This document shows, piece by piece, positions 14,060 through 44,672 of a DNA stretch of 64,000 bases (the first letter of the stretch is position 1; each line of letters opens with the position of its first letter). The position numbers and the translations under genes were made by a program. Source of the stretch: Planctomycetota bacterium (lineage in GTDB: Bacteria > Planctomycetota > Planctomycetia > Pirellulales > Pirellulaceae); contig VGZC01000032.1 in the NCBI GenBank assembly GCA_016872725.1, forward strand, positions 1 through 64,000, written 5' to 3'. Below the pieces are notes generated by a model. It was not told the DNA's origin. It was given only the letters and a program-made list of their open reading frames with translations, and searched no databases.

Positions 14060-14136
14060 TGTCGCACGCCCCTCCGGGGCGTGTTGCGCCTCGACACGGT
14101 TTTGGGTGAGGGAACTCGCCTCGGAGAGGCGAGCGA
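14059..14136. repeat. Solitary REP-like two-hairpin unit
   Basis: It contains CACGCCCCTCCGGGGCGTG (stem of 8, loop TCC) and, 35 bases on, CTCGCCTCGGAGAGGCGAG (stem of 8, loop GGA), with flanks TGTCG and CGAC. It is the same architecture as the units in the arrays at 41961-42484 and 43461-44051. Relative to them the first stem has a T-A pair replaced by C-G on both sides, a compensatory change. It sits between convergent genes and could act as a bidirectional terminator. Confidence 0.8.
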
Positions 14137-14138
14137 CG

Positions 14139-41819: not shown

Positions 41820-41960
41820 TCCAGTTCGATCGAATGAGGCTTGTTTCACGGCGCCGGTCCTTCTCGATGGGTGTGGGTGGTCTGGACGGAATGAGGATCG
41901 GGGACTCCAGTCGCCCTTTGATGGTAAGGACCTTCCCGGTGAATTCCAGGGGAGGCGCAT

Positions 41961-42484
41961 TGTCGCACGCCTCTCCGAGGCGTGTCGCGCGCGATGGAGA
42001 CTGGGGGTAGGGCACTCGCCTCGGAGAGGCGTATTGTCGCACGCCTCTCCGAGGCGTGTTACGCGAAAGAAAACTCGAACCGCGAAGAACTCGCCTCGGA
42101 GAGGCGAGCGACTTTCTCCGAGGCGTGTTGCCCGAAAAGAACTCCAACCGCGAAGAACTCGCCTCGGAGAGGCGAGCGACTTTCTCCGAGGCGTGTTGCC
42201 CGAAAAACTTGCGTGCGCGAAGAACTCGCCTCGGAGAGGCGAGCGACTTTCTCCGAGGCGTGTCGCCCGAAAAACTTGCGTGCACGAAGAACTCGCCTCG
42301 GAGAGGCGCATTGTCGCACGCCTCTCCGAGGCGTGTCGCCCGAAAGAAAACTTGAACCGCGAAGAACTCGCCTCGGAGAGGCGCATTGTCGCACGCCTCT
42401 CCGAGGCGTGTTACGCGAAAGAAAACTCGAACCGCGAAGAACTCGCCTCGGAGAGGCGAGCGACTTTCTCCTCCGAGACGTCGG
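41961..42484. repeat. REP-like array 1 (7 two-hairpin units)
   Basis: Seven units, each with a right hairpin CTCGCCTCGGAGAGGCG, at 42015, 42090, 42159, 42225, 42292, 42367 and 42442. Units 1, 2, 6 and 7 also have a full left hairpin CACGCCTCTCCGAGGCGTG; units 3-5 have a shortened left arm (ACTTTCTCCGAGGCGTG). The period is 75 bases with the full arm and 66-69 with the short one. Left and right hairpin cores are reverse complements of each other. Inner spacers fall into a few families (for example GCGATGGAGACTGGGGGTAG, GAAAACTCGAACCGCGAAGA, AAAAACTTGCGTGC). The array ends in a degenerate half unit. Confidence 0.9.
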
Positions 42485-42647
42485 GCCAACGGCATATCTG
42501 TCTCGGTTGAAAGTTGTCGTGTGACAGCATGCTGGCCAACGTGGAAGTTGCGACACGGTGCGGAGGTTAGATTCAGTGGGATTGTCTGGTTGTTTCTCCC
42601 GGCCGAGACGTCGGTTCGGTTTCGACGTAGGTACTCCCAATGTCCAC

Positions 42648-42694
42648 CCATGTCGCACGGCTCTCCGAGTCGGGACTCCCGTGAGCGAAGAACT
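42648..42694 (+). repeat. Degenerate REP-like unit at the RAYT start
   Basis: TGTCGCACGGCTCTCCGAG followed by a short spacer and GTGAGCGAAGAACT preserves the order of array motifs (TGTCGCACG, CTCTCCGAG, GAAGAACT) but with a collapsed right hairpin. It ends 16 bases before the chosen transposase ATG. Confidence 0.5.
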
Positions 42695-42709
42695 GAAGGA
42701 CCAGAACGT

Positions 42710-43510
42710 ATGGACGCGCAACGCCCGTCGACGCCGCACGATTCCGCGAGTCGTCCTCTCAGCGCACAGCTCCCGCCCGTCGAATGGAACTTCTTGGATC
42801 CGGACGTCGATATTGACGTGTCCGCACGCGATCGCCCTCACTGGGATCAAAACGGCGCCGTGACTTTTGTCACCTTTCGGCTGACGGACTCGATGCCCAA
42901 GTTCGTAGTGGAACGGTGGCTGGCGGAATTGCGGGAGTGGCTGGAAGGCAACCGTGTTGACTTGGGACCGCTCGACTCGGAACGTCGAGCGACGGCGGCT
43001 CGCGACCGGCGAGTCGACGAGCTCCCGAAACATCTGCGACGGGCGTTTGTGAAGTTCAAAAACCAGCGGTGGCACGAACACCTTGACGATTGCCACGGCA
43101 GTTGTCTTCTGCGGCGACCGGAATTTGGCACGATCGTCGCCGATTCGTTGCTCAAGTTCAATGAGGACCGTTATGACATCGACCGTTTCGTGGTGATGCC
43201 CAATCACGTTCATTTACTTGTTCAAATGCGTGTTGGCTGGAGACTTCGCGAACAGTGTGAATCTTGGATGCGATTTACCGCACGGCGGATCAACGCATTG
43301 CGAAAGATCGTGGGCAAAGTCTGGTCCGAACCTTTTGATCACATCGTTCGCAACGAGGGGCAGTTCGAGTATTTGCGACGTTACATCGAGGAAAATCCCG
43401 CGAACGCGAAGCTGTCTGATGAGGACTATTTGTTATGGGTTCATGGATCCGGGTTTGTCTTGTCGCACGCCTCTCCGAGGCGTGTTACGCGCGATGGAGA
43501 CTGGGGGTAG
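42710..43510 (+). CDS. REP-associated tyrosine transposase (RAYT, IS200-like Y1)
   Basis: 266 aa. It is a relative of the IS200/IS605 TnpA family that single-strand-cleaves REP hairpins. The HUH motif is MPNHVHLLVQM with H166 and H168; the catalytic tyrosine is probably Y225 in RRYIEENPANAKL. VTFVTFRLTDSMPKFVVERW near residue 50 is the conserved N-terminal block. ATG 42710 has GAAGGA about 9 bases upstream; ATG 42650 in the same frame would start inside the degenerate REP copy. The last 16 codons (LSHASPRRVTRDGDWG) and the stop come from the first unit of array 2. It has arrays on both sides and no passenger gene. Confidence 0.9.
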   Translation: MDAQRPSTPHDSASRPLSAQLPPVEWNFLDPDVDIDVSARDRPHWDQNGAVTFVTFRLTDSMPKFVVERWLAELREWLEGNRVDLGPLDSERRATAARDRRVDELPKHLRRAFVKFKNQRWHEHLDDCHGSCLLRRPEFGTIVADSLLKFNEDRYDIDRFVVMPNHVHLLVQMRVGWRLREQCESWMRFTARRINALRKIVGKVWSEPFDHIVRNEGQFEYLRRYIEENPANAKLSDEDYLLWVHGSGFVLSHASPRRVTRDGDWG

Positions 43511-44051
43511 GGCACTCGCCTCGGAGAGGCGTATTGTCGCACGCCTCTCCGAGGCGTGTTACGCGAAAGAAAACTCGAACCGCGAAGAACTCGCCTCGGA
43601 GAGGCGCATTGTCGCACGCCTCTCTGAGGCGTGTTACGCGAAAGAAAACTCGAACCGCGAAGAACTCGCCTCGGAGAGGCGTATTGTCGCACGCCTCTCC
43701 GAGGCGTGTTACGCGAAAGAAAACTCGAACCGCGAAGAACTCGCCTCGGAGAGGCGAGCGACTTTCTCCGAGGCGTGTTGTGCGAAAGAAAACCTTGGTA
43801 CCCGAAGAACTCGCCTCGGAGAGGCGTATTGTCGCACGCCTCTCCGAGGCGTGTTACGCGAAAGAAAACCTTGGTACCCGAAGAACTCGCCTCGGAGAGG
43901 CGAGCGACTTTCTCCGAGGCGTGTCGCCCGAAAAAAAAACTTGCGTGCACGAAGAACTCGCCTCGGAGAGGCGAGCGACTTTCTCCGAGGCGTGTTGTGC
44001 GAAAGGAAACCTTGGTACCGCGAAGAACTCGCCTCGGAGAGGCGAGCGACA
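43461..44051. repeat. REP-like array 2 (8 two-hairpin units)
   Basis: Right hairpins start at 43515, 43590, 43665, 43740, 43810, 43886, 43957 and 44028. Units 1-4 and 6 have the full left hairpin (unit 3 with loop TCT); units 5, 7 and 8 have the shortened arm. The first 146 bases match array 1 at all but two positions. A spacer family with CCTTGGTACC, not found in array 1, appears in units 5, 6 and 8. Unit 7 contains a run of nine A residues. The array overlaps the 3' end of the RAYT gene. Confidence 0.9.
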
Positions 44052-44237: not shown

Positions 44238-44672
44238 ATGTCCTTGCCATCTCGACGATTTCGCTGCCTGGTCATCGACGACGATCCGCACGTGCTCGCC
44301 CTGCTTCGCGCGTATCTTGAACACGATCTGGGCGACTTGCTTGCGATCGAGTCGGTCTCGGAGGCGCGCCGCGCGCGAACGATGGTCGCGGACGGATGTT
44401 GGGACATTGTGCTCTTGGATATCGAAATCCCGGGCGCGCGGGACCTGGAGTTCTTGCGGCTAGCGCGCGAAGCCAACCCCTGGTGCCGCGTCCTCGTCGT
44501 CACGGCCCATTCCACGTGGGATCGGATCGCGGAAGCCATCGAGTCCGGCGCGGCCGATTACCTCACCAAACCCGTCGTTCGCGCCGAGTTGTCCGGGGTG
44601 GTCCGCGGTGAATGCGACCGGCTCGCGCGCTGGTCCCGTCGGCTTGTGGGACACGCGTCCGCTTTGCCGTGA
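44238..44672 (+). CDS. Single-domain response regulator
   Basis: 144 aa. A receiver domain fills the protein: CLVIDDDPHVLALLRAYL carries the acidic pair, IVLLDIEIPGARDLEFL has the phosphoacceptor Asp near residue 62, VVTAHSTWDRIAEAIESG has the conserved Thr, and DYLTKPV the Lys. There is no output domain, only a short helical tail, so it probably relays phosphate or binds a partner (CheY/Spo0F style). No histidine kinase is adjacent. It converges with the S1 protein gene, 8 bases apart. Confidence 0.87.
   Translation: MSLPSRRFRCLVIDDDPHVLALLRAYLEHDLGDLLAIESVSEARRARTMVADGCWDIVLLDIEIPGARDLEFLRLAREANPWCRVLVVTAHSTWDRIAEAIESGAADYLTKPVVRAELSGVVRGECDRLARWSRRLVGHASALP

Follow-up and report, generated by a model that had tools for sequence, protein, structure and literature searches.

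The locus described here is very probably a REPtron, in which a domesticated IS200/IS605-like transposase gene (RAYT, or TnpA_REP) lies beside the hairpins upon which its product would act, a reading that we base on comparison of sequence and fold. Its layout appears to be that of an ordinary REPtron, and what seems to be new is an unusual REP tag, GTCG, together with a candidate residue for the recognition of that tag.

A RAYT gene between two REP arrays

The window, by which we mean the whole 64,000-nt stretch of DNA analysed, corresponds to bases 1-64000 of contig C32 in the draft genome of an uncultured planctomycete (5.24 Mb, 100 contigs, 95.8% complete). The locus is bordered on its left by a minus-strand gene and on its right by a response-regulator-like gene that starts at 44238, and it comprises the following features.

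41949-41960, plus strand: stump of a preceding unit (12 nt), left edge of the 5' array
41957-42464, plus strand: 5' array of seven tandem REPIN-like units of 67-75 nt
41961-42106, plus strand: direct-repeat copy 1, the first two units of the 5' array, 99% to 43461-43606
42652-42672, plus strand: lone degenerate REP in the stretch that separates the 5' array from the gene, 0 mismatches to GTCGCNCGNCTCTCCGAGNCG
42710-43510, plus strand: RAYT/TnpA_REP gene, 266 aa
42726-42755, plus strand: decayed REP-like stretch at the 5' end of the coding sequence, aligned by eye
42973-42993, minus strand: decayed REP within the coding sequence, before the HUH codons, 2 mismatches, 0.05 expected per window
43457-44050, plus strand: 3' array of eight tandem REPIN-like units, the first overlapping the last RAYT codons and the stop
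43461-43606, plus strand: direct-repeat copy 2, the first two units of the 3' array, 99% to 41961-42106

Where shuffles predict 0.05 tagged hairpins, the window has 21, which excludes chance; the numbers of units and the near-identity of the two arrays are those of the draft assembly, in which several other contigs end inside such arrays. The stump, inside which the 5' array opens, was called by comparing 41885-41990 with its own genome, where inner array units match at up to 98% from query base 65 onwards. The single REP at 42652-42672 has arms that are unpaired at the variable position, and the REP-like call at 42726-42755 is weaker than the other REP calls, its reference being L064, a homologue in which this place is taken by a complete REPIN in frame. 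The window also holds one more single REPIN of the same family (14061-14137), in which one REP has a CCCC/GGGG stem variant.

The RAYT gene is intact, with AAGGA about 9 nt upstream, and its product carries R42 before a PHW motif, HVH at 166-168 and a likely catalytic Tyr225. H166, H168 and Y225 are invariant in the family alignment, as befits an HUH nuclease with a single Y1 tyrosine. The Pfam Y1_Tnp profile scores above its cut-off, the best sequence match in the PDB, with E 5.5e-5, is 4er8, in which E. coli TnpA_REP is in complex with a REP, and 4er8 is also the only Foldseek match of the predicted model (pLDDT 82) at E <= 0.001, with modest TM-scores of 0.35/0.54. Motifs, profile and fold mark the protein as a TnpA_REP relative. 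Its score of 46.8 bits with the NCBIfam equivalog model NF047646 (REP_Tyr_transpos) is far below the cut-off of 80, so that it is related to that model without being classed under it. The closest named homologue is found in a Planctomycetaceae MAG.

This is the one intact RAYT of its family in the draft genome, and the REPs that flank it are also dispersed genome-wide. A second homologue in the same genome (L013, G000:C4:39696-40322) contains an internal TGA and has no clear flanking REPs. The genome carries two other Y1 transposases, and another of its enzymes could act on these REPs. At L009 (G000:C2:15881-16225), a different Y1 transposase is flanked by GTAG-tagged hairpins (gtagcctggggc...), and this is probably a second, unrelated REPtron.

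The REP consensus is GTCGC-N-CGCCTC-TCC-GAGGCG-N-GT, and the complete element reads GTCGC-N-CGCCTCTCCGAGGCG-N-GT, followed by a spacer of about 25-30 nt and an inverse REP. Such paired inverted REPs, present in many copies and able to form one hairpin, are what defines a REPIN or BIME; folded as single-stranded DNA, an 81-nt unit is computed to reach -31.9 kcal/mol (z -8.1). Among 138 REPs from loci of this genome, pairing is kept at the variable stem position by C-G in 118, G-C in eight, T-A in six and A-T in four (others, two), while a second variable position is mostly T-A, A-T or G-C. Junctions are common to the units within one array, and it is the spacers, not the REP ends, that vary between loci.

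Much of the original prediction for this locus held up. The Y1/HUH transposase that it placed at 42710-43510 is an intact open reading frame with HVH and YIEENP motifs at family-invariant columns, and its arrays of seven and eight units were correct in count and coordinates. Its description of every unit as two hairpins fits most of them, six of the 15 (67-71 nt) being without the left arm of the first palindrome. Its two long direct repeats, 41961-42106 and 43461-43606, align over all 146 positions at 99%, the two differences being CG/TA at 41986-41987. The offset of exactly 1500 to which it drew attention is merely the distance between two related array starts and adds no information, because homologous stretches without indels always show one fixed offset. 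Its proposal that the arrays are related is borne out, since both open with the same distinctive spacer, one not closely matched anywhere else in the genome, and both mix the same spacer types; the two arrays therefore share ancestry. Its further suggestions, that recombination could remove the transposase and that the module was inserted as a unit, are speculative. The GTCG tag, the REP sequence within the gene and the tag-residue association described below were not part of it. Most likely, one unit pair was copied across the gene or has been held alike by gene conversion, in either direction.

The arrangement resembles the E. coli REPtron, where a single RAYT gene (yafM/rayt) lies between BIME-2 arrays (PMC2817692): in both, inverted-REP arrays stand on either side of one RAYT, and the fold is shared by the best Foldseek match. 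Here, however, the tag is GTCG rather than GTAG, the first 3' REP overlaps the 3' end of the RAYT gene, and the protein is longer than its E. coli counterpart, being extended at the N terminus and carrying a helical insert ahead of the HUH motif. Like REPINs and BIMEs, the units consist of two inverted REPs and a spacer, occur singly or in tandem and are species-specific, but they differ in the GTCG tag, in a perfect short stem with a TCC loop and in junctions that are partly truncated.

REP sequence also extends into the genes themselves: the RAYT takes its final codons and its stop from the first unit of the 3' array. The closest homologue, L064, which is 56% identical over its best segment, has complete in-frame REPs near its start, at its stop and at the inner position that corresponds to 42973-42993; L232 has an in-frame REP array upstream of the conserved core; and L112, L117, L163 and L176 have tagged hairpins before the HUH motif, where the reading frame is open. 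In-frame REPs are known in RAYTs of TnpA_Y1 subclasses 2.4 and 2.8, generally between HuH and Y (PMC6006769). The RAYT of the window is like these in having a REP within an unbroken frame (PMC6006769), whereas in it and its relatives the REP positions are the termini and the stretch before the HUH motif.

Dispersal of the REPs and other readings of the locus

The genome-wide census of these elements comes from sequence and pattern searches. The tagged-hairpin pattern has 195 matches in its own genome at up to two mismatches, against three for a reversed-pattern control, and 174 against 0 at up to one mismatch; in 59 other genomes it has 0 matches in 49 and between 1 and 17 in the remaining 10. 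The 146-nt segment itself has 102 matching places in its own genome. In one relative, G016, same-stem hairpins lie on several contigs with a GTTG tag in 15 of 17 matches, and the RAYT search found none there.

RAYT homologues occur in 27 of the 60 genomes in the relatives search, the source genome included, and a search of 397 genomes of the order at E 1e-25 found them in 106. Tagged hairpins with a sequence particular to each homologue generally stand on either side of it, in other genera too, and at least two flanking hairpins with the majority tag were found at 83 of 117 RAYT loci, those without a tag call being scored as none. Within 900 bp, the median is three majority-tag hairpins and the maximum 17, reached by both the window and L027, so that the density of units around this gene, which the original prediction called unusual, is equalled around a relative's RAYT. 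That prediction had also stated that the link to the transposase would be fortuitous if relatives had the arrays at this site without the transposase and the repeats were absent from the rest of the genome. The repeats are abundant there and nearly absent in relatives, and the homologues have flanking hairpins of their own; the link is therefore not fortuitous.

It might still be argued that recombination and slippage spread the arrays as ordinary tandem repeats and that the RAYT, as a bystander, inserted next to one, given that arrays lie on about 29 contigs of the genome, nearly all without a RAYT, and that within-array junctions recur as slippage would give. Arrays could indeed be kept by recombination alone. 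We nevertheless consider a bystander very unlikely, because homologues in other genera are flanked by different tagged hairpins of their own, because the tag tracks enzyme residue 42 (see below) and because spacers change from locus to locus around constant REP ends. A possible artefact concerns the 146-base repeats, whose near-identity could stem from collapsed or misjoined short-read arrays of the kind in which other contigs end; but the copies differ at two positions, their flanks and the unit orders that follow them differ, and RAYTs of relatives as a rule have REPs on either side, leaving this origin even less credible. Least probable of all is that gene and arrays together form a classical IS200/IS605 insertion sequence whose ends are the arrays. 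The nuclease superfamily is the same, but the gene has a single intact copy, queries with the 146-nt segment and the protein found no second complete block, the protein scores 14.3 bits with the IS200 model against a cut-off of 55, and the hairpins are dispersed without the gene; a complete multi-copy element of the IS200/IS605 type was thus not seen. A REPtron remains our preferred reading.

At four loci (L046, L048, L053 and L058), the arrays begin a few bases past the apparent stop codon of a neighbouring gene. An insertion-site preference, suggested by 51 array edges (C at -5 in 30, A at -3 in 29), was dropped and is not claimed, because several flanks resemble stumps of neighbouring units.

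The GTCG tag and residue 42

REPs that flank RAYTs have been described with GT[AG]G tags and guide-directed cleavage (PMC6006769, PMC8266576). The tag of the window REPs is GTCG, in the right place 5' of the hairpin, and so departs from this canonical form. A degenerate GTMG tag has been mentioned for some families, and CGTC REPs have been reported without a RAYT (PMC3733652). The latter share GTC at the hairpin foot with the window REPs, which differ in having a RAYT and a free base before GTC (A in 51, C in 47 and T in 40 of the own-genome REPs), and identity with the CGTC family was dropped on the lack of conservation at that base. With GTCG in the right place and a GTMG precedent, the system is therefore regarded as a variant RAYT/REP system. 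A word search of the paper collection used found none with both 'GTCG' and 'RAYT', which is weak evidence of novelty.

The tag was seen to vary with the residue before PHW in a 14-sequence alignment, where R went with GTCG and L with GTAG. Tags were called automatically as the first GTNG near the stem foot; a second version that took the last GTNG read into the stem, gave spurious GTTG calls and was dropped, and the third returned to the first match, with fallbacks. The uncorrected automatic table covers 117 distinct RAYTs. In those with R, the third tag base was C in 38, G in two, T in one and A in none, with no call in four; in those with L or M, it was A in 50, C in two, G in three and T in three, with no call in 13; the single K had no call. 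Sixteen loci were then edited by eye, of which 12 were given a tag, either GTAG (L016, L042, L073, L115, L138 and L153) or GTCG (L088, L095, L098, L117, L134 and L176), and four with G or T calls were set to no call (L132, L148, L157 and L174). These calls were not blind, because the residue was known when they were made, and all 12 fit the rule. The edited set holds 56 cases of L/M with GTAG, 44 of R/K with GTCG, two of L with GTCG and two of R with GTGG, and it underlies the tree, the column scan, the counts of flanking hairpins and of cleavage bases, and the combined table. Two loci, L131 and L161, have L before PHW together with GTCG-like tags and are exceptions to the rule.

On a tree built without residue 42, R arises about three times (in the window clade with L064 and L135, in L147 and in a 42-row clade), each time with a tag switch, and one further switch to GTCG occurs without R; a sign test cannot reach 0.05 with so few switches. 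In a column scan, the 25-row clade of the window was kept for scoring and the other rows were used for fitting; in each part, position 42 came top of the 218 columns, with balanced accuracies of 1.0 and 0.83. This is neither an independent nor a blind test, the pattern having been seen beforehand in both parts and the labels being those of the eye-edited set, in which all added calls fit position 42 (L016, L073 and L138 among the scored rows). The scan shows that no other column equals position 42 on these labels; it is not a measure of the rule's predictive power.

For replication, 49 further loci were used, with the prediction written before they were fetched and tags taken from the automatic caller; one locus was left without a frame by the script. 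As printed, R/K loci had C in four, G in two, T in one and A in none, and L/M/F loci had A in 22, G in five, T in three and C in two. Two edits followed: L209 was assigned K with GTCG after its frame was read, and no call was kept for L251, an F with ambiguous hairpins. The outcome is weaker than in the discovery set, in that R/K never occurs with GTAG, GTCG is not guaranteed and GTGG appears in both classes. Across the 165 distinct RAYTs combined, some with tags called by eye, R/K is paired with GTCG in 49, with GTGG in four, with GTTG in one and with GTAG in none, L/M with GTAG in 77, F with GTAG in one and L with GTCG in two. A phylum-wide search for further R lineages found none, the 14 readable RAYTs among the matches listed all having L.

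Proposed mechanism and change of specificity

Both the mobility of the REPs and their recognition by the RAYT are inferred from sequence patterns. Most likely, the enzyme would bind a REP as a folded single strand, reading the GTCG tag and the hairpin, would cleave nearby through Tyr225 and would join the ends elsewhere. Over time, such cleavage and joining may have seeded the more than 170 copies, with tandem units forming locally through rejoining or slippage.

In the published guide model (PMC8266576), tag bases 3 and 4 select the cleavage dinucleotide, GTAG specifying CT and GTGG specifying CC, so that GTCG is here predicted to favour CG. Directly 3' of the hairpin foot, CG is found at 45% of GTCG loci against 14% of GTAG loci, and CA lies at -4 of the tag at 49% against 17%. 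A claim of a CG cleavage site was dropped, as the bias among loci may reflect shared descent and no clear fixed CG is seen in the bases that follow the REPs of the window itself.

It is possible, though we put it forward tentatively, that residue 42 helps to read the third tag base, with L or M for GTAG and R or K for GTCG, and that the roughly three joint switches represent a simple, portable change of specificity. If true, REP families would change specificity by such a change, which bears on how RAYTs recognise REPs and on how a fast-evolving enzyme and its repeats stay matched. A GTCG system with one candidate residue would make that specificity testable by swapping a single residue and a single tag base.
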